Virus record (IMG/VR): IMGVR_UViG_3300008448_000192
Location: 1 to 42,648 of that record
Origin: a virus
Strand: one strand, 5' to 3'
Length of the DNA stretch: 42,648 nt
The translations under genes and the position numbers were made by a program. Each line of letters starts with the position of its first letter. Within the stretch, counting starts at the first letter, position 1. The notes under the pieces were generated by a model, which saw only the letters and a list, made by a program, of their open reading frames with translations, was not told where the DNA came from and did not search any database. This document shows positions 3,330 through 37,815 of this stretch, one piece after another.

Positions 3330-3374
3330 CTTTCTGATATACAGTATATCTGTAGCCCCAACCATAGGGCTTAT
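3330..3374 (-). promoter_or_regulatory. Candidate phage RNA polymerase promoter, copy 3
   Basis: The minus strand reads CCCTATGGTTGGGGCTACAG (core TAGCCCCAAC on the plus strand at 3353-3362), followed by the palindrome GATATACTGTATATC. The ten-base core GTTGGGGCTA also occurs at 11339-11348 and 17009-17018 in the same orientation. Here it sits in a true intergenic gap upstream of the 69-aa, ssb and rusA block. That it is the promoter of the encoded T7-type polymerase is inference. Confidence 0.5.
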
Positions 3375-4031: not shown

Positions 4032-4225
4032 TTGCCGTCCTCCTTGAAGCAATCCCATCCACGCCGCTGCGCTTCTCTGCGCGCATCCGCCATCGTTGGC
4101 AGATGGTTGGCCTCGTTGTTGCACACTTCCCGCCTCGCCTCGTCGCGCTCTCGCAACGCATCAACGAGTTGATTGTTGAGACTCCGAATCATTTCGTTCA
4201 GGTATTCGCGCTCTTCTTCGCTCAC
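4028..4225 (-). CDS. Small coiled-coil protein, 65 aa
   Basis: Not recognised. The start is assigned to GTG 4225, which follows GGAGG by 8 nt and forms a GTGA overlap with the stop of the preceding gene; a GTG at 4258 has no ribosome-binding site. The protein is a charged helix (SEEEREYLNEMIRSLNNQ, then ALRERDEARREV), likely a coiled coil, with two cysteines. Its own stop forms another GTGA junction with the phosphoesterase, so the three genes look translationally coupled. Confidence 0.6.
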   Translation of the reverse strand: MSEEEREYLNEMIRSLNNQLVDALRERDEARREVCNNEANHLPTMADARREAQRRGWDCFKEDGK

Positions 4226-7538: not shown

Positions 7539-8519
7539 TTAAGCGAAAGTAAGAGCATACTTCATAACCTCAATAGTAGCATCCTGATTCTTACCCAACA
7601 AGTTATTGTAAGCAGCCGACTCAAAGGTAGGCTTCTTACCACGGGCAGGAATACGATGCTGCATTTCCTTAGTCACAGCATTAGCAACAAGCCACAGATT
7701 AGCAGTGCTATTAAGAGACTGCCGCTCACTATCAAAGGTATCAGACCACTTAGCAATCGTGGTAGTAGCCTTAAGGTAGTTAGTATACTCAGCCTCAGTC
7801 TGCGGATTGGCAACAATAGGAGTCTCAATCATACCCCAAACATCCATCCAGAACTTCTGGATCTCAGTCTTGGTAAACTCCTTGTTAACAAGGGCAGACA
7901 CCTTCTCTTCAAACAACTTACCAGTCTTCTGGTAGAACTTAAGAGCATCAGCCATAGCTTCCTGCTTCTTCTTGATATCACCAGTATGAGTAATACGGAA
8001 AGCCTTCTTAGCACCCGCTGCCATAGCCATACTCAAAGTATTCTGACAGACAATGCGGATACTGGTAGGCATAACAGACTTAGCAAGCGTACCATCATGG
8101 CTGTTAATAAAAGCCATGTACTTCTCAATTGGATCATTACTTCCTGCACCATCCATAGTTCCCGTCTTACAGAGAACAACAAGACGGCGACCACCATTCA
8201 TTGAGAGGGCAGACTCAACCTTAATGTCAGCACCAAGATTGTATGCCATCTCAAACACTTCGCTATTCTGAATCACCTGATAATCAGGGGACTGAATAGA
8301 CAAGATAGCGTTAGTATCATCACGAACAATAGCATTGTACTCATCAGACTGAGCATCACCAGCAAACACAGGGCCAACCTTAGAGACAGTCCAGTTAAGA
8401 CCAGCAATCTCCATAGCCTCAGTTGGACTCATATCATTCTGAATAACAACACCAAGTCCATGCCAAGCAGCTTCCTTATGAAAGACTGCGCCATCAGTAT
8501 CGGTAATATTGTGAGCCAT
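7539..8519 (-). CDS. DUF932 / TIGR03299 phage-plasmid protein
   Basis: The 326-aa product matches the DUF932 family found in phages and plasmids. It has the N-terminal AWHGLG motif (residues 18-23), central strands around a polar YMAFINSHDGT segment, and RIVCQNTLSMA, the usual R-x-V-C-x-N-T-L block. ATG 8519 is preceded by AAGGA. The biochemical function of the family is not established; DNA-modification or defence-related roles have been suggested only from context. Here it lies between small early genes and the RNA polymerase, in the early-to-middle transition region. Confidence 0.82.
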   Translation of the reverse strand: MAHNITDTDGAVFHKEAAWHGLGVVIQNDMSPTEAMEIAGLNWTVSKVGPVFAGDAQSDEYNAIVRDDTNAILSIQSPDYQVIQNSEVFEMAYNLGADIKVESALSMNGGRRLVVLCKTGTMDGAGSNDPIEKYMAFINSHDGTLAKSVMPTSIRIVCQNTLSMAMAAGAKKAFRITHTGDIKKKQEAMADALKFYQKTGKLFEEKVSALVNKEFTKTEIQKFWMDVWGMIETPIVANPQTEAEYTNYLKATTTIAKWSDTFDSERQSLNSTANLWLVANAVTKEMQHRIPARGKKPTFESAAYNNLLGKNQDATIEVMKYALTFA

Positions 8520-9575: not shown

Positions 9576-9648
9576 TGGGTCGGGAGAGACTTGAACTCTC
9601 AACCAATTGATTAAAAGTCAACTGCTCTACCTATTGAGCTACCAACCC
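9576..9648 (-). tRNA. tRNA-Lys (anticodon UUU)
   Basis: A 73-nt cloverleaf. The acceptor stem is GGGTTGG/CCGACCC, the D-arm contains AGCTC...GAGC, the anticodon stem is GTTGA/TCAAT with loop CTTTTAA, and the T-loop is TTCAAGT. Discriminator A; CCA is not encoded. It reads AAA/AAG, matching the AT-rich phage coding sequence. Confidence 0.93.
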
Positions 9649-9651
9649 TAA

Positions 9652-9724
9652 TAGCACTGGTGGGAGTCGAACCCACACTTTATTGATTTTGAGTCAACTG
9701 TCTCTGCCTTTGGACTACAGTGCC
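9652..9724 (-). tRNA. tRNA with anticodon CAA (Leu), short variable arm
   Basis: A 73-nt cloverleaf. The acceptor is GGCACTG/CAGTGCT (first pair G-U), the anticodon stem is GTTGA/TCAAT with loop CTCAAAA, the T-arm is GTGGG/CCCAC with TTCGACT, and the discriminator is A. By codon it is leucine (UUG). The variable region is only about five nucleotides (AAAGT), whereas bacterial tRNA-Leu normally has a long variable arm, so its charging identity is less certain than that of its neighbours. Confidence 0.85.
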
Positions 9725-9729
9725 ATATA

Positions 9730-9777
9730 GATTCTATGTACCTTGGATGGGTCAAAGCCATCTGTATACATAGAATC
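9730..9777 (-). other. tRNA-like stem-loop (possible tRNA remnant or spacer RNA)
   Basis: Between two tRNA genes the minus strand forms an 11-bp stem, GATTCTATGTA/TACATAGAATC. This encloses a 5-bp stem GATGG/CCATC with a 7-nt loop CTTTGAC, the geometry of an anticodon arm (UUG if read as an anticodon). No D- or T-arm is present. It could be a degenerate tRNA, an armless tRNA-like RNA, or a processing hairpin separating the tRNAs. Confidence 0.5.
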
Positions 9778-9808
9778 CGTAATAAAAATGTACCAGTATT
9801 TCTTACAA

Positions 9809-9882
9809 CATCCCTGACAGGGATCGAACCTGTAGCCTATGACTTAGAAGGTCATTGCTCTATCCAGTTGAGCTACAGGGAT
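9809..9882 (-). tRNA. tRNA-Arg (anticodon UCU)
   Basis: A 74-nt cloverleaf. The acceptor is ATCCCTG/CAGGGAT, the D-arm starts AGCTC, the anticodon stem is ATGAC/GTCAT with loop CTTCTAA, and the T-arm has TTCGATC. Discriminator G; CCA is not encoded. It decodes AGA/AGG, codons common in this phage and often rare in higher-GC hosts. Confidence 0.94.
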
Positions 9883-9887
9883 ATACA

Positions 9888-9963
9888 TGGAAGGGGCGGG
9901 AGTTGCACCCACATATTCACGCTTATAAGGCATGCGCTCTATCTACTTTTCAGCCACCCTTCC
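9888..9963 (-). tRNA. tRNA-Ile (anticodon UAU)
   Basis: A 76-nt cloverleaf. The acceptor is GGAAGGG/CCCTTCC and the anticodon stem is CATGC/GCGTG (one G-U) with loop CTTATAA, giving UAU for the rare AUA codon. The T-arm is GTGGG/CCCGC with an unusual T-loop TGCAACT instead of TTC. Discriminator A. A directly encoded UAU anticodon avoids the need for host lysidine modification. Confidence 0.9.
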
Positions 9964-17083: not shown

Positions 17084-20000
17084 TTACTCTAACAATTTGC
17101 CTAATTCTTCTGATACACCTCTCTGGTCGTAACCCATAGTCTTTTGTTTACCTAAGGCTTTTTCTGCTTGAGCTGTCTCCATCACATAGTTGCGTGGAGC
17201 TGGCTGATTAACATCCAGAGATATAGGACGGAACATAGTTCCGGCTTTCTTCTGGTATGGGTAAGGTTCTCTTTGAACCATATCCAAGTATTGTTGAATA
17301 GCATTCATTTCCTTAAATACCTGAGCATCTTCCAATACTCGTACTGGAATTGCTACTGGACTACGATTAACTAGGGAGGTAGGGCCAAACAAGTTACTGG
17401 CTTCCTTAACAGCGTTTATTGAAAAGGGATCTTCAATAAGTCGCTGAGCACTTCGGAAGTCAGACTCTAGTGTATTCATTCCTGCTCCAGCACCAGCTGG
17501 TAGGAAAGGTACACCATAGTACTTATAAGTACCACCTGTTAGACCAGCTACAGTGCTTACACCGGATTCAAGGAATCCGTTGTATAGACCAAGGAATGGA
17601 ACTCTGGTTAATCCACGAAGAACATACTGGCTTGGTTGTTTATCAAGTTCTTCCATTATATCTTCTGTTTCACGACCAGCTAACCATTCTTTGAACAAGC
17701 CTACAATTGTATCCATAGCGGCATATAAGAATATACCACCAGCTAAATACTTAAGTGTGCTTCGTCCACCGTAATCAAGAATAACATTGTCCTGATAGGA
17801 CTGTACCCAAGAAGTAAGAGCATACCACATTCTACCTAGGGCTGACTTAGAATCAAGAGAAGTCATCTTGTTAAGTCCACCCAATTCAGATGTAGCTGTC
17901 TTTATAATTAGGTCTTCAACCATGAAGGCATAAGATGAAATAGCTGATTCCATTACATCCATATCAATACCTTCTACTGGGTTGTTTCTAAGATCTTCAT
18001 GGATATCCATTAGATCTAGAATGTTGACTCGGCCATCTCTATGGTTGGCTTTTTCCATTGCCCACTTAAGATGTCGAATCTGTTCTTTAGTTGTCAAGCC
18101 ATACTTTAAGAACAAGGCAGCTTCGTTTGCATCACCAAACTTTGCTGTATGTCTTGCAATACCAGCAAACTCCTTCCACAACTTGGCTTCAGCTTTGGCA
18201 TCAGTAGCCGCAGCTTTCTTTAACTCAGCCAATTGGGAAGCAGTTGTAGTCTCAGTCAAGGCATCAAATAAAGTCTCAACTCTACCCTTGCTAATATCCC
18301 TCCAGATCATTCTCTGGATTCGTTGCTTAGCTAGAGCGCGTGTACCATTTGTAATTGCCTGTAGAGAACCAATACTTTGCATCCATTTACCAGCTTCTTC
18401 CAAAGTTCTGGTTCCTTTTTCCAAAGCACCTACACCATTCTTTACATTGATTATAGTGTCGTTTACACGAGTTCCAAATCTTGAATCAGATTTGAATGCA
18501 CCATATCCAATCTCTCCCATATATCTATTAGCTAGATCTGTACGGAAGCTTTCAAGAATAAAAGTCATGTCACCAATATCAGACTCCAATAGCTTTCGCT
18601 TTGAAGCACGATAATCAGCTAGGACATAACGCATAGCCTTAATAATGTTTTTTGGTATTGTATATAACTCAGGACTTTGCTTAGCCAACTCAGTCATGGT
18701 TTCAGTGAAAGCTGAAATACCATAACCAGCGGAGAACTTAAAGCGGATTGCTGCCAATCCAATTCTAGCTGAGTGTCCTGTCTCTGACTTTAGATATGGC
18801 AAGGTATCAGCATTAAACTGATACTCTTCATACAATCTATTAAGACCTTCTTCCAAACTATTCTTTGCTGTTCGTAGTTCAGCTTCTGACCAGTCCTGAT
18901 CCTTTGACAGATTATCAAAGCTATCATAAGTTTTCTTACGAACATAATTAAATACATCTAGAATAGTAATACCTGTCTTACCTAACATTCGGTCAAGTTC
19001 TCTCTGGAATGCTAGCTCAAAGTATCTACCCTTTAGGAAATAGAAGTAAGCCTCTGCAAGATTAGTTCTAAGGATAGCCTTAGTCTCGGGAGTACTAAAC
19101 ATCTCTTCTGGGGTTAATCCCTTGATTGGTAATATAGTCTTACCTTCTGGATCTAACTTAAAGAAAGGTTGGTTATAAATAGAGTTAAAGTCTTTAGTGC
19201 TGTTATAGGGATAACTCTTAGTTTTAAACTTAAGCATCTCTTCCATCTCAACACGAACTAGATTTCTACCATCTAGTTTCTTTCGCCACTTCTCTATGTA
19301 CATCGCAGTGTCTCCTTGGATAGCTGCTATGTACTTGGTCTTATCATGTGGAGCAAGATCTGTAACTCTTTCTGGAATACGATAAACAGAATATCTGTCA
19401 TCAAATTCCAATACAAAGTATTTCTCTGGATTACTCTTTCTAAGGAGTTTTAGAATATCAGATTTCTTTCCAGAGATTCCAGACTTAGTGATATCGCTCT
19501 CATGTAACTTTTGTAAAGTATCTAAACTAAACATATTAGCTGCTTCTGAATAAGTGATGGTTCTATCAGGAGCAAATATATTTAATGTCTGGTCTTTCTC
19601 GTTGTATTCAACATCGAGCCAGCCCAAGACAATCAATGTATTGATGTCTAGTTTATCGTCCTTTAACTTTCTATTTGTGCGAACTTCTACTAGTTTATCC
19701 AGTAGATTACTACGAGCAGCCCTGTCTCTCATTATAGATTCAAGACCTTCGTGATCAACTTGCGTTGGTGCAAAGACATCAGGAGATATTGGATTACCAT
19801 CTGCATCTACAGTTAACAAACGACCTGTGTTTGTTTCTAGATCCAGAATGTTTTTGTTTGCCAATCTAGCAGCTTTTAATAATAGAGATAGTTGTTTTGT
19901 TATTGGCTCAGCATACAATGCTGGAATACCAAGAGCAACTATATCTGCTTTATTAGGCTGTTTGTTTGTAAACAAAGTTTCATAAGTATATATATCAAGT

Positions 20001-23000
20001 TGTGCCTTTTGATCATTAGTCATGCGTGGCATGATTGTATTGATTTTAGCATACTCTTTAAATATACGGGTAATCAATCTACCTTCTTCACCTCTGAGTT
20101 GCATTGCTGTCTTAAAGGCAGTCTTTCCAGCACCTACCAAATGTCCTGTTTGAGTCTTACGATCATCAAAGAAACGAGACACAAACGAAAGTAGTGGAGC
20201 AACACTTCGCAGAGTATCACCTTGTCGTGATCCATTCTGTGTTGCATTCACACTCTTGTTCATTAAGTTTTCCCACCATGTTCGACTATCTCTTTGGTTT
20301 CCACCAAAGATTGCTCCAACAAGATTGTTAACTCTTAGTAAACGAGAAGTACCACTCTCTACATTATTGATTGCATTCTCAATAACTTTTTCATTTGGTA
20401 ACTCAGGCTCGGGTGCTGTTGGTTCTGGTGGAATCTCAGCTTCTTTAATATCTTTAATAACAGCATCTGTTGATGGAGGACCGGGAATCTTTGCGTCTAT
20501 TCCGGCTTCATCAATCAAGGATTTAACCTTTTTTGTTTTGCCGTTTAAACGATAATTACCTGCTTCATCTACTTTAGTAAATACAATATCTTCAGGCAAT
20601 ACAGGAATTACAAATTCTGGTTTGCCTTCAATTTGAATTTCTTTTGCTGCTTTATCTAAGAGCTGACGATAGGTAAGTGGTTTCTTTCCTGCTGGTCCTT
20701 CAGTTACTTTTACTCGTAATGAATCAGACACATACAATCTATCAACCGCTTGCCAGAACTTTGTCAGTATATCTTCACCAAGCACACGCTTATTTGCATC
20801 AGCAATAAACTGATTTACATTTACATAGTGTGACCAAAGCATTTCAAACATTGGGGTGACAGTCTCTGAGCCATCTGGTTCAACCTTTGATTCCCAATAT
20901 TTCTTTAGGAACTTTCGGAGGAATCCAGAATCCATTCCAGAAACTCTTAGCAACTCAATGTCTTCATTAAACTTGCGTTCAATCTTTTCTGCTTTAGTTG
21001 TTTCAACAACATCAGTTGGAATTTCTTTGACAGTTGCAACTATCTTCTCAATAGTTGGTAGTCTAGTTTCTCCAGTTGGTACTGTTGTTGTTTTAGATTT
21101 TGGTTTTCTTGGTACTCTAATTTTTTTAGTAGCAACAGGTAAACCTTCTTTTTTCTGTTTAGGTGCATCTATTCTTGGTCTGTTAATAACATTTATAACA
21201 GGGGTATTATCAGCAGCCTTTGCAATCTCTAACATCTTAGGTTGTTCAGGCACAGCATCAATTACAGTTGCTCCTAACACTGGCAGATCTGAAGTTGTTA
21301 AAGGAATAACAGAACCATCTTTAAATACTAAAGCATCAGAACCAATTCTACTTGCTGTCTTTTTTACACTTTCAAGTTTTACTGGATCTGCTGAAAGTAT
21401 ATCAGCTGACTCAACATCCATCTTCAATGGACGCTTTGGAGTAAAGCCGATAGCTTCTTTCTTACCAGAGTTTGTTCCATTGAGAATAGCATCAACTTGT
21501 TTAGCAGGACGAATAGTTTGTTCTGGCTTTTTACCAGTAATAGTTTCTTCTGTTGCTCTAAATAGTGATGCTTCTGTTTCTGGAATAGTAGGAGTTGCTA
21601 GTGACTCTGGATTCTTATTCTTTAAGCTTTCAGCTAAAGCTTGAGTCTGTCGTATACGCGAACCAGCTTCAACAATTGTTCTTTGTTTCGTAACTGGTTG
21701 AACTCTTGTAGTATTTTTAATTTCCTTATTTGCTTTTTCTGCATTCTTTCTTGATTCTTCAATAGCTTTCTTTTTATCATTATCTAGTTCACGAAGCTTT
21801 TGTCCAGCTTCATTTAGAGTTGATTCAAGTAGTTTATGCTTAGCAACTTCTTCAGTAATAAAAAGTTTTAGGGTGTTTAGTCTAGCAGTAATAGCAGCTC
21901 TCTTAATAGCTTTTCCAAACAGCTTTTCAGATTGTGCTGCTACTTTAGAGTCTGTACCTAAAGCAAGTTTTGCTTTTAATAAAGATACAGCTTCAGGCGT
22001 TAACCAACTACCATTAGATGCTTCATGCCACTCTAAAGCTTTTTGTAAATAGACATCACTAAGTTCTGCTTTACCTAGTTTCTTTTTCTCATACAAATTA
22101 GCTAGTCTATTAGTTTGTACTGGCTTTTCATTTGTGCCTTCATCAGAATCAACATTGAGTCTTCCAGCTCTTTGGTCTTTTCTTTCTTGATCTTTAGTTG
22201 CATTCTTACCAGTGGTTGTTAAATAAGCCATTAGATTATTAATAGTAGCAATATCACCATTAGCAACTGCTAGTTCTAAAGATGCTGTTCTCTTTTCACT
22301 TACCTGAATGACAGTATAAGCGTCTATTAAATCTGGACGAAGAGTTATAACTTTAATCAAAGCTTCTTCTAAGTTATCAGTAGTCACTACTTCTGAGAGT
22401 TCACTAGCAGCTTTTTCTTCTGACTTTAACTTTGTTGCTGAAGTAGACTCAGCTGCTTTCTTTCTTTTTGACTTTGTTGTAGGTTTGTTTATTACCCACT
22501 TACCAGATCCTTTGGTTTGCTTTACTTGATCGGTATTAATCATATCATATAAAGTACCAATGAATTCTTCAGGTGATTTACTACCAGTCAAAATTTTATT
22601 TACAATAGCTTCATCTATATTAGCAGCCGCTACTTTAACTAATAGACCTATGTCAACTTTGGTATCTTTTAACATTACAATATTAGCTAAAGCATCTTCT
22701 TTATTTTGCCATCTTACAATATCTTCAGCTGGAGTATTATCTCCATCTAGTTTATTGAATAATGGTAGACCGTCTTTTAGAATAGCCATTCGCATTTCAT
22801 CTGTAATAGGTAGATAAGGCTGTTTACCTATGCCATTAACTTCTTGTAGTTTTACAGAGGTTTTATATTTCTTGCCAATTTTGTTAGCAACTTTTACCAT
22901 TATGTTTTCATAGAACTCTAGATAACCAGTAGCACCAAACAACATAGTCCCACCTTCTTCAGATGGTTTTATAACAAAAGGTTCAAATACATTATCACGA

Positions 23001-26000
23001 CTACTATCTGTAATCTCTTTAGCTTTTGCTTTACCTACATAATTATGCAGTTCATTTGCAGAAATATCATCGAAGTTTCGTTTATTACCAGATTTTTCAT
23101 CAATAGTTATATCGTAAGAACCAAGATAATTTTTAGTTACAAAAATTTCAGAAACATTATCAATTATAATTTTGTTATAACGATCAGCTTGTTGTTGTCC
23201 TGTAGTCCAAGCAACACCATCAAAGCCATGCTCTACAGCATACTTTAACATGCGTTTGAATATCAAACCACCCCATGCTTCTGATGATTTAAAAGGAGCT
23301 AAAGGTAATAGATCTGGATCTATAAGATTAAGACCTTCATTTAATGCTGTTAAGTCATCTAACTCTCTTGCTAAAGTACTTTCATATGTGAATAAAAAGT
23401 CTAATTCCTCAATATGCTGTTTATATGGTTTTACATTAGGTAAAACATCAGATGGCAATTTAGACATTAATTGCTGCTTTAAAAAGTATTTAACTAAAAC
23501 AAGAGCATCTGCTAAGTCTTTAGGTTCTTTTATTAGTTTTAATTCTAAATTCATTCTACTTATTATATTGTCAACACTACTACTACGATAGCCGTATGCA
23601 AACGAAGAAGAATATTTAAATAAAGGATGTTGACTTATACTAATAATGTTATTGCCCATACTATAAACAATATCTTTTGCTTTTGTCATTCCAGTAAGAT
23701 CAAAATTACCTTCTGGAAATATAGCACCTACTCCAACTTCTTGTGAGCCATCAGCTATATCATATAAAATATGTGCAGTAGAATCATTAAATGCATAGTT
23801 ATTGTCCATAAGATCAAAAGTTTTATTACGAATAACAATATAAACTGGTTGTGTTATATCAACTCCATACGCATCAATAGATTGTTTAGATTTCCACGCT
23901 TTTTTAATTTCATCAGCATTAAAAGAAAGCTCAAACAATATATTATACTTATCTAGTTGTTGTGTTTTAGTTGAAAATAATTTATCAGGTAGTTCAGTAT
24001 TAGAAAGTTTTACTTCATTATCCATAATTTTTTTTATATCAGGAACAATTGTATCTAATCTTTCACTAACTTCTTTTATTCTCTGTTCGTTGTTAACAAA
24101 CTCTTCAGGTTTTTCTGGTGTATCTTTAGGACGATAACCTTTTTCGTTTCCTTTTTGATGCCAATCGCTTTGAAATTCTTCACCAAATAAAACTTTAAAG
24201 TTTTCTGGAGTATATCTAGTATTAGCACGACCATGTACAACAACATTTGTTACTGGAGTGTTATTACCATGCCAGCCTCCTTCCCAATGTGTCATACCAC
24301 TTTGTAATTCAATATCAGGAAATCTAATTAAGAATTCTCTTTGATCTTCACCATTAGGTAAAACTAAAGTTTCGTGTTGATATTTATCCCAGATAGTATG
24401 ACCACCGGGTAGTGGCTTTTCTATTGTTTCTCTATAAGGTGCAAATAAATCTAAGATAGCACTCTGAATATTTTCTGGTAATTTATCTAATTCGGTTTTA
24501 AGATATTCTTCAACTTGATTAAAAACAGTACTATAAACCTGAGCGCGTAATTCTTTATTTCTGAAATAAGGATATAATTCAGGTTGTTCTCTCATTAATC
24601 TTTCTTTAGGTAAATTATTGCCCCATAAAAGTGATTCATTAGCTTTAATTACATTTTCAGCAGTTACTTTACCATATTTAGATTCAGGTATTACTTCTTC
24701 AGGATAGAAAGTTGTAGCTTGCTCTTTACTAGTTACAAATTCAATATTATCTTTACTTGAATTAATTAGATTACCATCTTTTAATTTTACATATTCCATA
24801 CCACCAAAGACTTCTGACTTTTCAATATTAGCTGCAATAAACTCTTTAATGGCTGCAATAAGAAGCGGCCAATTATCTTTATCTGTTATTTCTGCTTGTT
24901 TTTCTAAAGCGTATTCTCCTAGCTTTTTAAAAAACAAAGGATCTCTAAGTGTTTTAGAAACAGGAATAACGCTAGAAGGAAATACAATTGTTTTGTAAGT
25001 TTTACCGCCGCTACTAGTAACTGAATCAGTTATTGGAAGTGTATCTGTTTTAATAAAATCGTGTACTAAAACTCTTGAAACATTTTTCGTAGAATGAACT
25101 ATTGTTGTTTCCGAGCCTTTAATAACTTCTTCTATTTTAACAGGTTTAATAATAGAAATAAGTGTATTTAAATCTACTTTAGCATCTTCAGGTAATGCAT
25201 CCATATATTCTTTTAGACCAGTCCATTCAATCTCTTCTTGTTTAATACTACCCTTAACCAACAAAGCAGCAAGTTGTTGCTTTGTCATTGTTCTTTGTGG
25301 ATTAGTCTTTATTGTTTCAACAAGACTAGAATAGAATGTAGACAACATCAATTCTTTTTGCGGTGTTGTGTTAAACGAAATATCAAATAGTTTATTTGAA
25401 GGATCATCAAAGCCTAAAATAAAAGCGGCTCTTCCAAGAAGACCAGTAACACTAGCCATTTCACTTAAACCATTTTTCTCTAATCTATCTCTAACCAAAT
25501 CTAAAATAGAATTATTAAAGTATTCATTTGAGCTAACAGTCTGTAGCAAGTTTGCTCTGTCTTCAACAGACATAAGATCTTTATTAGTAAAAGAAACAAA
25601 ATCATACTTAGGATCTAATACAGGTTTTGCTTTACTACCAAAGACAGTCTTATCAAATAGAGGATCTGAAGCAACTTCAAACAAACGCTTACCTGTAGTA
25701 ACTAAGTAAGCATAGTCATACTTACCTTCAGGAATCTTTTCTTTCTTTGCATATTGTTCAAACACATCAAGGATCTTAAGTGAGCGTTCTTCATAAGTAG
25801 CTGGAATAGCTCCCATGTTTCTTCGCTCAGCGCTGATTGAGAAGAACTGTTCTTTAAAGTATTTTAGTCTTTCTTCGGTAGTCATGTTAATAAACTTATC
25901 GTAGTCTTTAGCTGACTCAAAGAAATACATTACTTTATAAAGAAGAGAGTTAGTCTGTGTCTTTTTATATTCAGAGTAAGCTTCAACAAACATATTAAAA

Positions 26001-29000
26001 TGTTTGCCTATTCTACCACCAGAATCAATTGCAGATAGCCCTTGGCTTTTAACTATAGTCATAGCAGCTATCATAGCTGGATCAAAGTATTGACCATTCA
26101 TCAAGAATTCATACTCACCTCTAGTAAGCATGTACTTGTCATTGATTCCTTTTTTATGGATTATTGTAGCAAACTCACGCGCATTAGTAGCAAACTTAGT
26201 ATAGCCACCAGTTAACTGTGCAGATCTTGCAAAGACTTCATTTAACTCATGGACAGATAATGTTTGATCTGCCATTTGTTTATTGATGTTTGTAATTTCT
26301 TTTACAAGAGCACTAGCAGTATCATAAAACTCAGAACTATTTAAAATCCTAGTTGCGACTAGAACTGCTTTCTGAATATCTAATAAAATAGATTTAGTCC
26401 AAGAGACATCTATTGGATTCATCTGTTGTATTATTGTTTCAGCTTCTGTTAACAATACTTTTGAAAAAGTCTGTACAAAAAATTCTTCAGCATTTATTAA
26501 ATGATAAGTACTTAAGAATCTTTCGTTTAACATAGGATCATCTAGCTTTAAGGTAGATTTAAAACCCTTGTCTTGAACAAGAGCCATACCAAAAGATGAA
26601 ACAGCTTTGTTGTATAACTTAAGATTTGATAAATAGATATTACCTGTAGCTCTTGATTTAAAATAAGCGTGACCTATCTCATGTAGGATAGATCTAATGC
26701 GCTGATTTGATCTTGCTTTTGGAGATAGGAAATAACCAAAGTTTGCATTAAGTGTAATCTTCTTCTTATCATATTCCCATTTAGCAACAGTAGAAGCATC
26801 GCTTACTATTGACTTTGTTCCAGTAACTTCATCTGTCTTTACTGTTGTCATTTTTTCTACACCAAACTCAAGGAATGGAACATCACTAAAGTTTAGATGA
26901 ACAACAGAAGCAAATAAAAGAATACGATCTTCGCTTGTAAGCATGGAGTTAGTTACAAGACTGTCAACATAGTCTGCAAACTTTTTAGCGGAGTCTTTGC
27001 TACCTGAAACAATAGAAACAAAAGCATTTGATACATCTGCTTTGTTATCATTTAGATATTTAATCTTAGCTACTCTATCTTTATCAACCTTTGCAATATT
27101 AATTGCGTTTCTAATTTGCATTGATAGAGCGTTAAAAATAGTTTCTTTGCGTTCCTTAGCTCCAGCAATATCTCTTACGGCATTCTCAGTTGTTTCACTG
27201 ATTTCACCAGTAAGCTTTGCTTCTAAAATAGCAGCATCAACAACATCAGAAGCTTCTGTTGGAATACCAGCTTTTACAGTCGCTTCTCTTTCTGGAGAGG
27301 TTGCAGCAGATTCAATAGCTTCAAGTAACTTATGAGCTGCTTCTTCTGCCGCTACTTTTCTTTCAGCTGCTGGCTTTGCTGTGTCTCTTGCTTCCTTAAT
27401 TAGATCAGGAATATTACGCTGAGATCTTTTTTTTAATCCTTCTAGTTCTGCCTTAAGTGCCTTATAACGATCTGAACCTAGACGCTTACGAAGTCTAAAA
27501 AACTCTCCCTTGCGTTGTCTTTCTAGTTCTTCATAGACACGCTCTCGTTCTTTTGGTAGACCAACAGCTTCTGTTTCTACCTTCTTGGCATCTTCTAGAA
27601 ACTTCTTACCAGCAAACAAGACACGCATTTTATCAGATACTGACATTTGATCAAAGACTTCACCAGACTCAATAAATCGCTCAGAGCCTTCATTATTAGT
27701 ACGACGAGCAAACTCAGTCATTACTTCATGTATATTTCTAAAGACACGATTAGGCGCTGCTCTAGCAATATATTCTGCTGTAGTTTCATTCTCATATCGG
27801 CGTGTACCTACATCTTCTGGTGTTGATCTAGCTACTTCAGGAGAATTCAAAGCTTCTCTTGTTTCAACACGATCAACTCTTGCTTCAGTTTCGGTTGCCA
27901 TTTTTTCTGCAGTAATATCAGTATTTTCAATTACTGCTTCTTTAGCTAGCTTTTCTGGAACTGGAGCATCAATGATTGGCTTTTCAGGCTTCTTCATAAG
28001 ACCAGAAATATTATCAATTGTATTACCTAGTGGAGTTCCTTCAAGGGTAAGACGCTTATCCAATGAGTTTCTAAGCCCACGACCAGCATCAATCTCTACG
28101 CCTTGCACTCTGTTTCTAACAGCACCAACACCACTGCGTAACAATCCACCACCAAGACCAAACACACCACCAAACGCCAAGCCTTCTTCTAATGCTGTTG
28201 TAGCAATCAAAGAAGCATTATAATCAGTGAGTGCGTATGGGTTGGCGTATAGAGTTGCAGCACCAAAGGCAATTTCTCTTTGCTGTCTAGCATACTCAGC
28301 TAAGCCACCTTGTACTGCTCCGAATGTAAACGCAGCAGCAGCTCCACGCAGCAAACCAAAGTTACTTACATAACTAGGCATAATGCCAAGTGGTAGTTTA
28401 TAAAGTGTTTCAGTTGTGTAAGCAGTTGCCCTTAAAGCCTTACCAGCAACAGATGCAGAATCATAGACACGCTTTAAGCGCATAAACAAAGATGTCCCAC
28501 CTAAAGCAGTGGCTGTTGCTTCTGCTGCCATAACACCACCAGCTAAACCAGCGGCGGTTCCTACTCCCGGAACAAGAGATCCAATGGCTGTTGTAATACC
28601 AGCTAATGCCAACTCAGCACCAATACTTGGAATAGTGTCAGGGCTATTAATCATACCTCCAACAAGACCATCTCGGAATAAACGAACATAGTCTAGTGTT
28701 GTTGGTTTGTATGTTCCAATTCTTTTTTGAATGTCAGTAACATTTAGCTGATGCATGATACGAATCATTGCATGGTCAGCATTTGGAGAATCACTTACAA
28801 AAGAAGAATCAATACCATTTTCTAATAGATATTGATTTACAATTGGATTTGAAAACTTACTTGAAAACCAATTATTTGGTTCAAAGTTTGGGTCTTCTCT
28901 TGCCATAATCTTTTCAATATCTTTTGTATCTCCAGCTAATTCTGTATCAGAGAATGAACTAGTAATTCCAAACAAATCTTGAGCGACAAATTGATCGAAC

Positions 29001-29548
29001 CAGTTAAAGCCTAGCTTTTCATCAGCTTTGCTTTGTGCTTCTGCATACAAAAGCTTTGTTGAAATATCTCTAATTTGTTTCTGTCTATCAGTAAGTTCGT
29101 CATAAGACAAACCACTAAGATCCTGTAACTGCTCGGCTTGAAGCATCATGTCTAGATTTTTTCTATCGACATCTAATGCTTCTGTGGTAAGCTCGCTATC
29201 CCCATAGCGCATTGGGGATAGCGGAGCCTTACCGATTAATTGTCGCCATGCAGCACCCTTAGTAGGATCATTAGCAATACCAAGAAGACCGTCTGATACG
29301 CCAGTGAGATTTCCTTCTAATGAGCCTAAAGCCTGAGTCAAAGCATAAAACTGATTATAGGTTTCGACCTTCTTAATGTCACCCTTTACATATGAAAGAG
29401 GATCAGTAAGACGCGCTGGGTCTAAAAATTCTAAATTATCTCCGTCATAAGCAGCTAATACTTGGGCTGGTCTATAAGCATTTAGTTGGAGTAAACCAGC
29501 TGATGGTTTCTCCGAACCTATAGGAAATCCTTCTGAGTAATTTAACAT
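17084..29548 (-). CDS. Giant 4154-aa virion/polyvalent protein
   Basis: The last gene of the late operon, starting at ATG 29548 behind AAGGAC. Glycine/alanine-rich hydrophobic segments at about 300-355 and 395-480, and near 3930-3960, suggest membrane insertion like T7 gp16 ejection proteins. An HEIGH zincin motif (H956, E957, H960) with a downstream NAEEF glutamate (about 1021-1022) indicates a zinc metallopeptidase. EEFQSDWHQKG (about 1790) and FDGVAWTTGQQQADRY (about 2108-2123) are signatures recurring in phage large polyvalent proteins. A Lys/Thr/Pro-rich, probably disordered region spans about 2500-2950, and a long helical C-terminal part follows. The protein is about three times the length of T7 gp16, and I see no lytic transglycosylase motif. 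I infer delivery with DNA, supplying effector domains to the host. Confidence 0.85.
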   Translation of the reverse strand: MLNYSEGFPIGSEKPSAGLLQLNAYRPAQVLAAYDGDNLEFLDPARLTDPLSYVKGDIKKVETYNQFYALTQALGSLEGNLTGVSDGLLGIANDPTKGAAWRQLIGKAPLSPMRYGDSELTTEALDVDRKNLDMMLQAEQLQDLSGLSYDELTDRQKQIRDISTKLLYAEAQSKADEKLGFNWFDQFVAQDLFGITSSFSDTELAGDTKDIEKIMAREDPNFEPNNWFSSKFSNPIVNQYLLENGIDSSFVSDSPNADHAMIRIMHQLNVTDIQKRIGTYKPTTLDYVRLFRDGLVGGMINSPDTIPSIGAELALAGITTAIGSLVPGVGTAAGLAGGVMAAEATATALGGTSLFMRLKRVYDSASVAGKALRATAYTTETLYKLPLGIMPSYVSNFGLLRGAAAAFTFGAVQGGLAEYARQQREIAFGAATLYANPYALTDYNASLIATTALEEGLAFGGVFGLGGGLLRSGVGAVRNRVQGVEIDAGRGLRNSLDKRLTLEGTPLGNTIDNISGLMKKPEKPIIDAPVPEKLAKEAVIENTDITAEKMATETEARVDRVETREALNSPEVARSTPEDVGTRRYENETTAEYIARAAPNRVFRNIHEVMTEFARRTNNEGSERFIESGEVFDQMSVSDKMRVLFAGKKFLEDAKKVETEAVGLPKERERVYEELERQRKGEFFRLRKRLGSDRYKALKAELEGLKKRSQRNIPDLIKEARDTAKPAAERKVAAEEAAHKLLEAIESAATSPEREATVKAGIPTEASDVVDAAILEAKLTGEISETTENAVRDIAGAKERKETIFNALSMQIRNAINIAKVDKDRVAKIKYLNDNKADVSNAFVSIVSGSKDSAKKFADYVDSLVTNSMLTSEDRILLFASVVHLNFSDVPFLEFGVEKMTTVKTDEVTGTKSIVSDASTVAKWEYDKKKITLNANFGYFLSPKARSNQRIRSILHEIGHAYFKSRATGNIYLSNLKLYNKAVSSFGMALVQDKGFKSTLKLDDPMLNERFLSTYHLINAEEFFVQTFSKVLLTEAETIIQQMNPIDVSWTKSILLDIQKAVLVATRILNSSEFYDTASALVKEITNINKQMADQTLSVHELNEVFARSAQLTGGYTKFATNAREFATIIHKKGINDKYMLTRGEYEFLMNGQYFDPAMIAAMTIVKSQGLSAIDSGGRIGKHFNMFVEAYSEYKKTQTNSLLYKVMYFFESAKDYDKFINMTTEERLKYFKEQFFSISAERRNMGAIPATYEERSLKILDVFEQYAKKEKIPEGKYDYAYLVTTGKRLFEVASDPLFDKTVFGSKAKPVLDPKYDFVSFTNKDLMSVEDRANLLQTVSSNEYFNNSILDLVRDRLEKNGLSEMASVTGLLGRAAFILGFDDPSNKLFDISFNTTPQKELMLSTFYSSLVETIKTNPQRTMTKQQLAALLVKGSIKQEEIEWTGLKEYMDALPEDAKVDLNTLISIIKPVKIEEVIKGSETTIVHSTKNVSRVLVHDFIKTDTLPITDSVTSSGGKTYKTIVFPSSVIPVSKTLRDPLFFKKLGEYALEKQAEITDKDNWPLLIAAIKEFIAANIEKSEVFGGMEYVKLKDGNLINSSKDNIEFVTSKEQATTFYPEEVIPESKYGKVTAENVIKANESLLWGNNLPKERLMREQPELYPYFRNKELRAQVYSTVFNQVEEYLKTELDKLPENIQSAILDLFAPYRETIEKPLPGGHTIWDKYQHETLVLPNGEDQREFLIRFPDIELQSGMTHWEGGWHGNNTPVTNVVVHGRANTRYTPENFKVLFGEEFQSDWHQKGNEKGYRPKDTPEKPEEFVNNEQRIKEVSERLDTIVPDIKKIMDNEVKLSNTELPDKLFSTKTQQLDKYNILFELSFNADEIKKAWKSKQSIDAYGVDITQPVYIVIRNKTFDLMDNNYAFNDSTAHILYDIADGSQEVGVGAIFPEGNFDLTGMTKAKDIVYSMGNNIISISQHPLFKYSSSFAYGYRSSSVDNIISRMNLELKLIKEPKDLADALVLVKYFLKQQLMSKLPSDVLPNVKPYKQHIEELDFLFTYESTLARELDDLTALNEGLNLIDPDLLPLAPFKSSEAWGGLIFKRMLKYAVEHGFDGVAWTTGQQQADRYNKIIIDNVSEIFVTKNYLGSYDITIDEKSGNKRNFDDISANELHNYVGKAKAKEITDSSRDNVFEPFVIKPSEEGGTMLFGATGYLEFYENIMVKVANKIGKKYKTSVKLQEVNGIGKQPYLPITDEMRMAILKDGLPLFNKLDGDNTPAEDIVRWQNKEDALANIVMLKDTKVDIGLLVKVAAANIDEAIVNKILTGSKSPEEFIGTLYDMINTDQVKQTKGSGKWVINKPTTKSKRKKAAESTSATKLKSEEKAASELSEVVTTDNLEEALIKVITLRPDLIDAYTVIQVSEKRTASLELAVANGDIATINNLMAYLTTTGKNATKDQERKDQRAGRLNVDSDEGTNEKPVQTNRLANLYEKKKLGKAELSDVYLQKALEWHEASNGSWLTPEAVSLLKAKLALGTDSKVAAQSEKLFGKAIKRAAITARLNTLKLFITEEVAKHKLLESTLNEAGQKLRELDNDKKKAIEESRKNAEKANKEIKNTTRVQPVTKQRTIVEAGSRIRQTQALAESLKNKNPESLATPTIPETEASLFRATEETITGKKPEQTIRPAKQVDAILNGTNSGKKEAIGFTPKRPLKMDVESADILSADPVKLESVKKTASRIGSDALVFKDGSVIPLTTSDLPVLGATVIDAVPEQPKMLEIAKAADNTPVINVINRPRIDAPKQKKEGLPVATKKIRVPRKPKSKTTTVPTGETRLPTIEKIVATVKEIPTDVVETTKAEKIERKFNEDIELLRVSGMDSGFLRKFLKKYWESKVEPDGSETVTPMFEMLWSHYVNVNQFIADANKRVLGEDILTKFWQAVDRLYVSDSLRVKVTEGPAGKKPLTYRQLLDKAAKEIQIEGKPEFVIPVLPEDIVFTKVDEAGNYRLNGKTKKVKSLIDEAGIDAKIPGPPSTDAVIKDIKEAEIPPEPTAPEPELPNEKVIENAINNVESGTSRLLRVNNLVGAIFGGNQRDSRTWWENLMNKSVNATQNGSRQGDTLRSVAPLLSFVSRFFDDRKTQTGHLVGAGKTAFKTAMQLRGEEGRLITRIFKEYAKINTIMPRMTNDQKAQLDIYTYETLFTNKQPNKADIVALGIPALYAEPITKQLSLLLKAARLANKNILDLETNTGRLLTVDADGNPISPDVFAPTQVDHEGLESIMRDRAARSNLLDKLVEVRTNRKLKDDKLDINTLIVLGWLDVEYNEKDQTLNIFAPDRTITYSEAANMFSLDTLQKLHESDITKSGISGKKSDILKLLRKSNPEKYFVLEFDDRYSVYRIPERVTDLAPHDKTKYIAAIQGDTAMYIEKWRKKLDGRNLVRVEMEEMLKFKTKSYPYNSTKDFNSIYNQPFFKLDPEGKTILPIKGLTPEEMFSTPETKAILRTNLAEAYFYFLKGRYFELAFQRELDRMLGKTGITILDVFNYVRKKTYDSFDNLSKDQDWSEAELRTAKNSLEEGLNRLYEEYQFNADTLPYLKSETGHSARIGLAAIRFKFSAGYGISAFTETMTELAKQSPELYTIPKNIIKAMRYVLADYRASKRKLLESDIGDMTFILESFRTDLANRYMGEIGYGAFKSDSRFGTRVNDTIINVKNGVGALEKGTRTLEEAGKWMQSIGSLQAITNGTRALAKQRIQRMIWRDISKGRVETLFDALTETTTASQLAELKKAAATDAKAEAKLWKEFAGIARHTAKFGDANEAALFLKYGLTTKEQIRHLKWAMEKANHRDGRVNILDLMDIHEDLRNNPVEGIDMDVMESAISSYAFMVEDLIIKTATSELGGLNKMTSLDSKSALGRMWYALTSWVQSYQDNVILDYGGRSTLKYLAGGIFLYAAMDTIVGLFKEWLAGRETEDIMEELDKQPSQYVLRGLTRVPFLGLYNGFLESGVSTVAGLTGGTYKYYGVPFLPAGAGAGMNTLESDFRSAQRLIEDPFSINAVKEASNLFGPTSLVNRSPVAIPVRVLEDAQVFKEMNAIQQYLDMVQREPYPYQKKAGTMFRPISLDVNQPAPRNYVMETAQAEKALGKQKTMGYDQRGVSEELGKLLE

Positions 29549-34883: not shown

Positions 34884-35645
34884 TTATTTAAATTGAAAAG
34901 TGGGAATACCTGTATAAGTAGTACTGCCCATTCCAGTATATACAGGGACAACATTGGAAGGCGTAGGAACTGAGCCACCACCAGCGCCGCCTCCACCACC
35001 TTGACCGGGGAAGCCATACTTAGCACCAGCACCAACGAATGCAGAAGCTCCAGATAGACCAGCCTGAATTAAACCAGTTGTTAAAGCAGTGCTTGAGTTG
35101 TCTGGGATACCGCCTTTAGCTGGAATAAATACTCCTAGATCTGGGGCAATAGATGAGGCTCTTTGAGAAAGCCGTGCTTGCTGTTGTGTCACAATATCTT
35201 GATATGCACTTCTATGGTTTAACTTTAAAGCAGCCATATTATTACCAAGCGATTCAATGTTCTGTCTAAACAAAGCTCGGGCTGTTCCACTTGTTGGATT
35301 CATTCCTCGGCCTGTCGTTGCTGCCAAGAACTGTGCGTTTACCTGAGCAGTTTGTTTGCTTAGTGTACTCTTTTGATTTGAAAAAGACTTGTCCAAATAA
35401 AGCTCAGCCATTGCTCGTTCTTTATTTGCCGCTTTTTCGATCTGAGTATTTCTTTCAAGATTGGCTTGAAACTGTCGCATTGTATTGCGATCTTGTGCTT
35501 GTTTCTGCCATTGATTCTGGAAGTTAGCATTACGCTGTTGAATTTCAGCAGCCATTGCCTGAGACTCAGCCTGACTTGACTGACCCAATGCACCCATAAC
35601 GCCGGAAGCCAAAGCCATTACGCCCATTCCGATTGCTACTGGCAT
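34884..35645 (-). CDS. gp14-like internal virion protein, 253 aa
   Basis: A compact virion protein of the T7 gp14 type. A hydrophobic Gly/Ala/Met N-terminus (VAIGMGVMALASGVMGALG, residues 3-21) suits membrane insertion. A long Gln/Asn-rich helix (residues about 25-90) follows, with a conserved-type RGM-x-PTSGTARALF segment, a second hydrophobic stretch, and a Gly-rich C-terminal region. T7 gp14 forms the outer-membrane part of the ejection channel; the same role is inferred. ATG 35645 follows GAGG and overlaps the preceding gene by 10 nt. Confidence 0.75.
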   Translation of the reverse strand: MPVAIGMGVMALASGVMGALGQSSQAESQAMAAEIQQRNANFQNQWQKQAQDRNTMRQFQANLERNTQIEKAANKERAMAELYLDKSFSNQKSTLSKQTAQVNAQFLAATTGRGMNPTSGTARALFRQNIESLGNNMAALKLNHRSAYQDIVTQQQARLSQRASSIAPDLGVFIPAKGGIPDNSSTALTTGLIQAGLSGASAFVGAGAKYGFPGQGGGGGAGGGSVPTPSNVVPVYTGMGSTTYTGIPTFQFK

Positions 35646-36133
35646 GATAATCCTCTTTCTATAAATGAGAGAATACTATTTATGGAAGAATCTAGGTCTT
35701 CAGTATACACTCTCATAACTTGTTTATTGTTCAGTGATGATAACCACTGCTCTGTATTTTCTATGAATGGAAGTAGTAAAGAAGATGGTGAATCTAAAGA
35801 TAGTAACTGGTTATTTAGTTTGCACTCGTCTTTAAATACTTTGTAAAGACTGGCAACTTGAGCTACTTTATCCTTACGCTCAAGAGCAACAACACCAACT
35901 ATCTTATTAACATCAATGTCTAAATAAGAAGGATACCATAGCTTAACCAAACAGTTATTAATTGTTGGATCATATATAACAGCATCCCAATATCCATCTA
36001 CATTGTGTTGTTCGACTGTAAAGTTAGGTATAAACTTATAACCATGTATTGGTATTCCTTTTTGTTTTGCTTGCTGCATAACAAATGATGTTCCTGTCCG
36101 TGGACCTAAGCCTGTTACAATAACTATACTCAT
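35636..36133 (-). CDS. P-loop/sulfotransferase-like protein, 165 aa
   Basis: The N-terminus IVIVTGLGPRTGTSFVMQQA looks like a strand, a phosphate-binding loop and a helix, as in sulfotransferases and related P-loop transferases that bind PAPS or a nucleotide. The loop lacks the classical GKS/T ending, so ATP binding is unlikely to be canonical. No C-terminal motif confirms the family. ATG overlaps the terminase stop (ATGA), placing it in the packaging/ejection operon. It may modify a host or virion component, but the function is uncertain. Confidence 0.5.
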   Translation of the reverse strand: MSIVIVTGLGPRTGTSFVMQQAKQKGIPIHGYKFIPNFTVEQHNVDGYWDAVIYDPTINNCLVKLWYPSYLDIDVNKIVGVVALERKDKVAQVASLYKVFKDECKLNNQLLSLDSPSSLLLPFIENTEQWLSSLNNKQVMRVYTEDLDSSINSILSFIERGLSCQ

Positions 36134-37815
36134 CTTCGTTTACGGTTTAAAATAGATTTACCAAACTTATTTTCTTTTGGTTCTTTCCCATTCAGTAGGA
36201 TAGCACCAGAGATTCTATCACCTAGAATACCTAGGGATCTCTTGTTGCTCATCCAATCTTTTACTTTATTCTTATAATCTTCTTCTTGTCTATTGATCAT
36301 TTCTCTTTCGGGATCAACCGCCAGAGCTTCAGTCCAATAGGATACAGCAGCAGCGAGTACATCTACACGGTCATCGTGCTTTAGTGCGCCACGCTTTTCC
36401 TGCATTCTAGTAATTTGAATTTGATTATCTTTATTTTTTAATACTTCGGTATCCATAACTAATCTATGCTGTGCCATAATTGGCTCTAGTATATTAATTA
36501 TTCTATGTTCCTTTTGTCCTGATACTTTGAATTCTTCAATGGCAACAGCACCACAATTCTGCATTACGACAGGTGTAAGGATCTTGCCAAACATACCATC
36601 ACCGTAGTTAGACTCATACCTTACGAGATTAATGTCGTACTGATTAATCAACTTACAGATTTGTTTAAGTGTTGGTGTATCATAGCCACCCTGAATACCT
36701 AGTAGTTCATGGATGACAACATAACCATGAGCGAACGATGCAACGCATACCGCAGTTTCATCCGCGCCTCTACCAGATGGGTCGATAAACAATACAGTCT
36801 GTGAATACGGGACAAACTTAGGTTCAATGTGCATTGGTTCATATACAAGATCTCCTTTCATACCAAAAGAAGAAACTCTTCTATTTACCACGCTCTTAGC
36901 ATGAACAATTTTTACCGGAAAGACTTCTGGATCGACATCAATAACGATGATGTCTTCCAATCTGAGGGGATATTTCTTGTTGTCAGCTGAAGTCGTTTTG
37001 AGTTTATAGTGGAGTTCAAAATTTGTAGGACCAATCTTTGCTTCAAGTTCAGCAAGTTTCTCATCCGAGAATCGCTCTGGCTGTGTCGAACAACCCGGCT
37101 CCATGCCCAACTGCAACACATAGGAATCAACATCTTCAACATCCTCTGCATTATCCAAGTCTGGCATTACTGCCGGAAACTTGATAATCTTGTAGATACC
37201 ACCTAGTTTGTTATATACAGAGTCTTTGGATTGTGGTGTACCAAGGAATCTGATAGAGCAGTCTTCACCTTTGTTCTTGACATTCTCAAGTTCAAGGCAA
37301 CGCTCCCATAATTTCTCTCTAGCCTGTGGGCTATCTGAGTTCTCAGGAATCTCTACATCGTCACCAATGATCTTGTCTGCGTGTAGACCTGTGATCTGGG
37401 AGGTAATACCTCTAGCGGTAACGGATAGATCCTGAGTAAATTTAGTTCTACTGTTTACATTAAAACCAAAAGCACTATCCTTATCGGACTCCTTTGGTTC
37501 TAGGTTTGCCATGTATGGAACCAGAGTTAAAATGTTTCTGGCCTGAGATACAAACTTAATTGCCTTATCCGCTGTAGCAGAAAGTACAAGTATTGTTGTA
37601 TTAGGATTCCGTAGTAGAATCCAAGATACATAACAAGCTGTGATTACACTCTTACCAGCACCACGCCCTGCCTGTAGGATATGATCACTTGGACCTTCCT
37701 GTAGACGGTTAGCTATGGCATACTGGAGAGGGGTGGGTTCACCTAAACCCAAATACTTAAAACAAAAATAAAGGTGATTGCGGAAGTCGTCTATGACCTC
37801 TGGGGGTGGCTTCAT
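36130..37815 (-). CDS. terL: Large terminase subunit (T7 gp19-like)
   Basis: The 561-aa packaging motor cuts concatemers and pumps DNA into the prohead. The ATPase part has Walker A GRGAGKS (50-56, K55), Walker B around KIIGDDVE (149-155) and a coupling motif LGTPQSKDSVY (191-201). The nuclease part has the first acidic site FIDPSGRG (D345), ESNYGDG near 401-407 and a final KHDDRVD (479-485). ATG 37815 lies after AGGAGG, downstream of a terminator that separates it from the small-terminase candidate. The sequence type is closest in pattern to T7-like terminases, whose genomes have direct terminal repeats. Confidence 0.95.
   Translation of the reverse strand: MKPPPEVIDDFRNHLYFCFKYLGLGEPTPLQYAIANRLQEGPSDHILQAGRGAGKSVITACYVSWILLRNPNTTILVLSATADKAIKFVSQARNILTLVPYMANLEPKESDKDSAFGFNVNSRTKFTQDLSVTARGITSQITGLHADKIIGDDVEIPENSDSPQAREKLWERCLELENVKNKGEDCSIRFLGTPQSKDSVYNKLGGIYKIIKFPAVMPDLDNAEDVEDVDSYVLQLGMEPGCSTQPERFSDEKLAELEAKIGPTNFELHYKLKTTSADNKKYPLRLEDIIVIDVDPEVFPVKIVHAKSVVNRRVSSFGMKGDLVYEPMHIEPKFVPYSQTVLFIDPSGRGADETAVCVASFAHGYVVIHELLGIQGGYDTPTLKQICKLINQYDINLVRYESNYGDGMFGKILTPVVMQNCGAVAIEEFKVSGQKEHRIINILEPIMAQHRLVMDTEVLKNKDNQIQITRMQEKRGALKHDDRVDVLAAAVSYWTEALAVDPEREMINRQEEDYKNKVKDWMSNKRSLGILGDRISGAILLNGKEPKENKFGKSILNRKRR

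Follow-up and report, generated by a model that had tools for sequence, protein, structure and literature searches.

The question raised by this locus is what a phage does with a single protein of 4154 residues, and how much of that protein is a fixed part of it. The gene lies in IMG/VR virus record IMGVR_UViG_3300008448_000192 (positions 1 to 42,648; this whole 42,648-bp stretch is called the window), and an initial annotation had described it as an uninterrupted 12.5-kb gene that closes a late operon. It is indeed a 4154-codon open reading frame (ORF) on the minus strand, with its ATG at 29548, its stop at 17084 and no internal stops; the longest stop-free run in 20 base-shuffled versions of the window was 161 codons. 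A Shine-Dalgarno-like sequence, AGAAAGGA, lies just 5' of the ATG, and a terminator-like hairpin of 13 pairs lies 3' of the stop (17077-17048; the scan gave 6 terminator-like sites in 1.2 kb against 1.1 expected), so that the gene looks like the end of its operon. An identical protein is encoded by a second record of 66,203 bp (L003/G020). Our reading, to which we give a probability of about 0.57, is that the giant protein serves a freshwater family of T7-like phages as their largest ejection protein, a functional counterpart of T7 gp16 and of the N4 virion RNA polymerase (vRNAP), and that it carries exchangeable effector cassettes.

The exchangeable part is directly visible among relatives, which came from four scans of viral contigs. 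Those whose blocks are mostly 46-64% identical to the window lack its residues ~1377-2280, and we call this site slot 1. Slot length was taken as the distance between flank anchors in 17 genes, the truncated contigs L002, L004 and L005 being excluded; flank anchors and DNA pairs were chosen because plain MAFFT puts the slot in the wrong place when relatives are distant, and global alignments split it into scattered gaps. Slot 1 measures 11-18 residues in 7 of the 17 genes (L007, L009, L010, L011, L143, L144 and L146), 189-233 residues in four (L006, L008, L145 and L147), where it holds a single ART-PolyVal ADP-ribosyltransferase (ART) domain, 474-488 residues in three with longer, ART-containing inserts (L142, L148 and L149), and 898 residues in the window and L003. 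The remaining gene, L150, was not scored by flank anchors; BLAST places ~95 residues between its two blocks, and Pfam finds nothing there. Because L003 duplicates the window, L143 equals L144 as a protein and L148 and L149 are 99.9% alike, the independent slot cases number fewer than 17.

ART-PolyVal (PF18760) exceeds the curated Pfam cut-off in 7 of 18 records, always within the giant frame (frames of 3442-3740 aa), and falls in slot 1 of L006, L008, L142, L145, L147 and L148. It is not above cut-off in the window itself, whose own module is present in 3 of the 18 records, none of them an ART record; eight records have neither content. Two natural pairs of phages catch the exchange at the level of DNA. 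L008 and L011 (96.4% and 98.0% identity) have one gross difference, an in-frame stretch of 528 bp, and L006 and L009 (93.0% and 95.1%) likewise differ grossly only by an in-frame 582 bp, while gaps of a few bases also occur within both alignments. The differing stretches hold ART-PolyVal (E 1.5e-17 for the 528 bp, 2.8e-16 for the 582 bp). In a third pair, L145 and L148, the flanks are 96.3% and 92.1% identical and the slots have no blastn match (E 1e-10). Slot DNA has been gained or lost recently, and in frame. An intein or other selfish element was considered and set aside, as homologues of the insert include stand-alone proteins and polyvalent modules; this was judged on homology, and no intein model was run.

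The window's own slot content belongs to a module found far beyond this family. At least 571 of 600 pattern stretches in viral contigs were confirmed as copies, and 80 of these loci (L025-L104) were kept; in three, no QSDW-containing ORF was present. The other 77 each yielded a homologous ORF, and every one of these matches the window solely within residues 1314-2325 (E 1e-3), so that the limits of homology coincide with the block that is present or absent among relatives. The module forms stand-alone proteins of ~600-870 aa and is also embedded in longer ones, the largest of 4362 aa; in Pfam scans of four of these proteins, its partners are LPD38, LPD5, ART-PolyVal and LPD1 (L034), ART-PolyVal and LPD22 (L102), SNF2/helicase domains (L059) or none (the stand-alone L081). 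The initial annotation had named EFQSDWH and AWTTGQQQADRY as signatures of polyvalent proteins, a view borne out by this company and by the ART-PolyVal domains that relatives carry at the same spot. What it had missed is that the block bearing both motifs is an exchangeable insert of ~900 residues, outside the conserved protein. In GenBank, the module is carried by two proteins of other architecture: XAI97106.1 of Dolichospermum phage Dfl-JY45 (30% identity over part of the module), which has four ART-PolyVal stretches, and UOF80349.1 of myovirus ct7L0027 (24% identity, likewise over part), whose gene lies two positions downstream of one for a 'head to tail connecting protein'. Matches of the module to plasmids are weak, in five records (tblastn, E 0.01-0.03). 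As a separate observation, WP_042853530.1 (L024), a protein of ~5000 aa annotated 'LPD23 domain-containing protein' on a Pseudomonas plasmid, has the module including a segment before EFQSDWH; the EFQSDWH/WTTGxQQ module as such is very common in viral contigs, whether stand-alone or fused.

The fold of the window's module is predicted to be GNAT-like. Its AlphaFold model, built from 71 sequences, has a mean predicted local distance difference test (pLDDT) score of 64.7, with core blocks at 90-98. Among the 50 matches listed by VIA against the PDB, most are acetyltransferases by title; the best Z is 9.3, to the C-terminal domain of isocitrate lyase 2 (ICL2), which we take to be GNAT-like, followed by NatD (7.7), KacT (7.5) and AtaT (7.3), where best Z values of 7-8 are common in such searches. 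A few of the matches (ICL2, Rv1916, chimallin, a 90S chain and an integron cassette protein) are GNAT-like proteins or have titles that leave this unclear. Plain Foldseek with the model gave nothing significant (best E 0.13), and against viral models it gave 21 matches at E <=1e-3, to proteins that are uncharacterised or named ART-PolyVal, polyvalent domains or others. The canonical acetyl-CoA loop of GNATs reads [QR]xxGx[GA] and follows strand 4. It is absent from the window's module and occurs near QSDW in only 19 of 71 aligned rows, so that GNAT-like describes the predicted fold, and any acetyl-transfer chemistry for this module would be conjectural. No Pfam or NCBIfam model matched the module copies scanned. 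The only strong PHROG match, phrog_7348 ('endolysin'; residues 2081-2258, E 3.4e-8), covers positions 1910-2097 of a 2564-position profile, and we do not take the label as a function.

Backbone and cargo change at contrasting rates. Between the window and L005, the N-terminal block differs by 34 synonymous changes and 5 nonsynonymous ones, a ratio of nonsynonymous to synonymous rates (dN/dS) of 0.04, and the module has 13 and 29 (dN/dS 0.58; Fisher p 3e-7 against the N block); for the window and L002 the ratios are 0.08 and 0.53, the latter from only 158 codons (p 8e-20). The backbones of L008/L011 and L006/L009, pairs in which one member has an empty slot 1, give 0.06-0.10, and the C block of L148/L149 gives 0.21, from 10 changes. 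Content of G+C at third codon positions (GC3) is 14% in the window's module against 22-25% in its flanks, 15% against 32-38% for the ART insert of L006, and 20% against 24-26%, a small gap, for that of L008. Rates and GC3 fit a conserved machine with acquired, fast-changing cargo, though a module dN/dS of 0.5-0.6 could also reflect relaxed constraint. That ratio, together with the low GC3 of the inserts, is what might be expected if the slot were a neutral hot spot, a linker that tolerates functionless passengers or assembly artefacts. We regard this as very improbable, since the inserts are in frame and repeatedly enzyme-like, with ART-PolyVal above a curated cut-off in the seven records already mentioned, since the filled alleles come from different metagenomes, as judged by contig names, and since N1768, H1772, R1774, R1778, a glutamate and other residues are identical in 71 of 71 aligned module rows (the window and L005 included; QSDW was the criterion by which rows were selected).

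We infer the ejection-type role of the backbone from gene order and hydropathy. By its gene content the phage is T7-like, as had been proposed: the window encodes a T7-type RNA polymerase separate from the giant gene (Pfam RNA_pol, E 1e-83), among the matches listed in GenBank the best for the terminase large subunit are to Autographiviridae-type phages at <=39% identity, and a T7-like portal is present in 5 of 7 records. After the terminase gene come genes for proteins of 165, 253, 350 and 1415 aa and then the giant gene. The order 261-285, 348-354 and 1082-1755 aa (measured stop to stop) followed by the giant gene is seen again in ten relatives' loci; in L011 the first member of the series is not among the ORFs of >250 aa. 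In G020, portal, scaffold, capsid and two tail genes lie upstream on the same strand, which together with the position downstream of the terminase gene places the giant gene near virion genes. Hydropathy follows T7 as well, the 253-aa protein having a hydrophobic N-terminus like gp14, the 1415-aa protein no hydrophobic segment, like gp15, and the giant protein hydrophobic segments near both ends, like gp16. Such segments are found near each end in all seven full-length copies measured (window, L003, L006-L009 and L011), with modest Kyte-Doolittle peaks of 1.3-1.8. In T7, gp16 has two membrane regions that flank a cytoplasmic hub (PMC8954989, excerpt).

The assignment of hydrophobic ends to an ejection protein, which the initial annotation had made, is nonetheless only partly upheld, and several observations count against it. 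Among four gp16-position proteins measured, segments near both ends occur only in that of T7, those of ProddE, CRP-804 and a Limnohabitans phage showing 0, 1 and 1 segments; the window's giant protein also has two interior segments (residues 876-894 and 2298-2316). For both reasons hydropathy is not diagnostic. By BLAST and hidden Markov model (HMM) searches, the giant protein has no similarity to the internal proteins of T7, ProddE, CRP-804 or the Limnohabitans phage, and neither it nor its neighbours show convincing similarity to T7 gp14, gp15 or gp16; one weak neighbour match joins the 1415-aa protein to CRP-804 gp34 (E 0.003). The ejection assignment is consequently made by position and anatomy. 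Pfam and PHROGs find neither a transglycosylase/lysozyme domain nor an RNA polymerase domain in the giant protein, LPD38 was found neither in G000 nor in the five relatives' records searched, and no virion data on the family came to light.

Known ejection proteins offer a comparison. The analogous ejection proteins of phage DEV have no detectable sequence similarity to those of T7, and N4 vRNAP is a giant gp16 counterpart of ~3500 residues with an HExxH domain (PMC12633501, excerpt). As in T7 gp16, the gene of the giant protein follows genes that are gp14- and gp15-like by order and hydropathy, and the protein has hydrophobic segments near both ends, which the three other gp16-position proteins do not; unlike gp16, it is three times larger and shows no detectable similarity to it and no transglycosylase domain. 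With the N4 polymerase (gp50, Schitoviridae) it would share the place of third ejection protein, at the gp16 position, and the combination, within a single chain, of enzyme cargo with an HExxH domain (PMC12633501, excerpt). It differs in that the N4 cargo is an RNA polymerase, a domain that the window's phage encodes apart, in that its HExxH motif precedes the cargo, and in that its cargo varies between close relatives.

Slot 1 is not the only insertion point, and the others bear on whether the protein is packaged. At slot 2, L008 and L011 share ~210 extra residues near window residue 2820 (near residues 2043-2260 of L008), related to proteins of Cellulophaga phages phi4:1 (gp38, E 1e-7) and phi14:2 (g067, E 4e-3). 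L143 and L144, whose slot 1 is empty, have ~1150 extra residues (giant residues ~1066-2221) directly after the zincin-like region described below, with a Recep_L_domain match just at cut-off; the end of this stretch in L143 is related to giant Pseudomonas podophage proteins, some of them annotated as structural, such as Hollowayvirus Epa33 gp62 (3799 aa, 'structural protein 5'). All three named proteins are large late proteins that have an inserted domain in common with members of the giant family. A late enzyme complex that is produced as infection ends and stays in the cell would fit the lack of direct virion evidence in the family and the fact that late genes can encode non-structural proteins. 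It is nevertheless quite improbable given the gene order, the credit of the Cellulophaga proteins to tandem mass spectrometry (MS/MS) proteomics in the phi4:1 and phi14:2 records, and the resemblance of another insert to the podophage structural protein. The weakly related phi14:2 (Crassvirales) protein, we also observed, is encoded beside an RNA polymerase subunit gene.

The backbone that carries these slots is a narrow family. GenBank phages gave no match to residues 1-1000 or 3050-4154 at E 0.01, and a pattern search of genome contigs with the C block returned 61 stretches and no relative. Backbone blocks of relatives are mostly 46-64% identical to the window; against L006-L009 and L011, identity is 64-69% over residues 2830-4154 and 34-41% over residues 2290-2800. 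The HEIGH motif at H956/H960, with a glutamate near 1021, was found as the initial annotation had stated: all 20 copies, duplicates counted, have HExGHA[YF]F, and H956, E957, G959, H960 and E1021/E1022 do not vary among the 10 aligned copies or among the 13 of a wider alignment. In these alignments the HExxH motif and downstream glutamate are conserved as in zincin metallopeptidases. For the fold itself, structural matches to residues 750-1099 weakly support a zincin. The better core of the model consists of strands and then the HExxH helix and matches selecase (Z 4.1), jannalysin (3.7), an SprT-type protein (3.8) and a lethal-factor domain (4.4). Against this, the model is poor (mean pLDDT 51) and those matches rank below unrelated helical ones of up to Z 5.5, which fall on its poorly modelled end; the PDB profile search of the region returned one row, Aminopeptidase N (E 1.7).

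A late-gene protein that combines a zincin-like motif with ART, GNAT-like or LPD-associated modules also answers the description of a polyvalent protein. That class was predicted from domain content and context, its members have been suggested to enter by injection and to undergo processing by peptidases of this kind, and GNATs were reported in it, one family typically beside an ART (Iyer et al. 2017, PMC5512222, excerpt). The window's module is common to proteins that bear ART-PolyVal, LPD1, LPD5, LPD22 and LPD38; the relatives join the HExxH region with ART-PolyVal above cut-off in one protein, and the window joins it with a module that is GNAT-like by fold only. The giant protein might then be a polyvalent protein of the usual kind, which is packaged and injected to carry effectors and has no part in the DNA ejection channel, with an ejectosome formed by the products of the preceding genes alone. 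Its content, its lack of similarity to gp16 and the equivocal hydropathy agree with this. We hold that alternative to be unlikely, if the strongest of those considered: it closes a gp14/gp15/gp16-like series, a position that suits an ejection protein, and backbone dN/dS stays at 0.06-0.10 in the two pairs with an empty-slot-1 member, from which it follows that the backbone probably has a role beyond carrying cargo. Independent accretion of solo domains is described for polyvalent proteins too (PMC5512222, excerpt), but the giant family differs in having one conserved chassis with a slot at a fixed site, whose filled and empty alleles are nearly identical. It differs also in that the window's protein, scanned whole, gives no match of note in Pfam (YopH_N, E 0.0023 and below cut-off, which we treat as chance, and Gly_rich_SFCGS, E 0.27), PHROGs (one match at E 0.38) or NCBIfam (zero); PDB profile searches with the C block, the N-terminus, the slot module and the zincin region found nothing significant.

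The favoured reading, an ejection protein with cassettes, suggests the following course. A packaging and ejection chassis would be formed by the two conserved blocks, N and C, which have a hydrophobic region towards either end of the protein; the zincin-like domain lies ~300 residues upstream of slot 1 (~1387-2285). The slot lies between the two hydrophobic regions, and the matching stretch of the published T7 gp16 model faces the host cytoplasm. In related phages it holds one or more ADP-ribosyltransferases, the GNAT-like-fold module of the window, or nothing. Once infection begins, this cargo would pass into the cell together with the DNA and there modify host molecules ahead of phage gene expression, and the metallopeptidase might free the cargo or aid passage of the chain. 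More tentatively, and at somewhat less than even odds, a T7-type lineage may have rebuilt its principal ejection protein as a modular vehicle for delivery, a metallopeptidase-bearing chassis with fixed slots whose cassettes are swapped between near-identical phages like polymorphic-toxin tips, the cargo being matched to hosts or their defences. The cassettes in such a vehicle would be single or tandem ADP-ribosyltransferases, the GNAT-like module of a very widespread phage family, and the domains of the further slots.

The proposed fusion of polyvalent protein and ejectosome stands in part, as to its polyvalent-type module, and the concept has precedents in the class of polyvalent proteins (PMC5512222) and in N4 vRNAP (PMC12633501). 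A literature search by title and the start of the abstract, with most subscription journals outside its coverage, found no report of such a slot and no publication joining a polyvalent protein with an internal virion protein. By that search, three points are new: that the setting is a phage of T7 type, that there is one fixed slot whose filled and empty alleles are nearly identical, and that a very widespread module is predicted to have a GNAT-like fold; ARTs were found in only 3% of siphoviruses and podoviruses in one published survey (PMC9503650, excerpt). The locus shows where a probable ejection protein tolerates ~900 extra residues. Natural phage pairs whose giant genes differ grossly solely by an ADP-ribosyltransferase cassette, on a chassis under purifying selection and alongside the fast-changing cargo of the window, allow direct tests of whether such cargo reaches the inside of the cell, whether it is set free by the embedded metallopeptidase, and which host factor each cassette counters. 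Coordinates are collected in Table 1.

Table 1. Features of the giant gene and its late-operon neighbours in the window
Feature	Position	Strand	Basis
Giant gene, 4154 aa	17084..29548	-	ORF call
N block of backbone, residues 1-1386	25391..29548	-	aligns in relatives compared; dN/dS 0.04-0.08 in four pairs
Hydrophobic region I, residues 308-342	28523..28627	-	Kyte-Doolittle
Second weak hydrophobic segment, residues 447-465	28154-28210	-	Kyte-Doolittle
Zincin-like (putative) metallopeptidase region, residues 750-1099	26252..27301	-	HExGHA[YF]F 20/20; model and fold matches weak
HEIGH, residues 956-960	26669..26683	-	motif and alignments
Partner glutamates E1021/E1022	26483-26488	-	alignments
Slot-1 insert (cargo module), residues ~1387-2285, predicted GNAT-like fold core	22694..25390	-	absent from L006-L011; homologous to polyvalent-type modules
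EFQSDWH, residues 1791-1797	24158..24178	-	motif
AWTTGQQQADRY, residues 2113-2124	23177..23212	-	motif
C block of backbone, residues 2286-4154	17087..22693	-	identity to relatives
Slot 2, point at residues ~2820-2828	21065..21091	-	L008 and L011 carry ~210 extra residues there
Hydrophobic region II, residues 3934-3953	17690..17749	-	Kyte-Doolittle
Terminator-like hairpin after stop codon	17048..17077	-	hairpin scan
1415-aa protein, gp15 position, no hydrophobic segment	29585..33832	-	no Pfam/PHROG match
253-aa protein, gp14 position, hydrophobic N-terminus	34884..35645	-	no Pfam/PHROG match
Terminase large subunit, marks late operon	36130..37815	-	GenBank and profile matches

Other features of these genomes were recorded in passing. 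Between the terminase gene and the gp14-position gene, window positions 35636-36133 encode the 165-aa protein, which has a P-loop-like GLGPRTGTS near its start and no Pfam or PHROG match. Elsewhere the window has genes for a Thy1 thymidylate synthase (1504-2160), a calcineurin-like phosphoesterase (3375-4124) and a DUF932 protein (7539-8519), and L109 has a ribonucleotide reductase gene near its portal gene. A cluster of four tRNA genes, Lys(ttt), Leu(caa), Arg(tct) and Ile(tat), lies at window positions 9576-9963.

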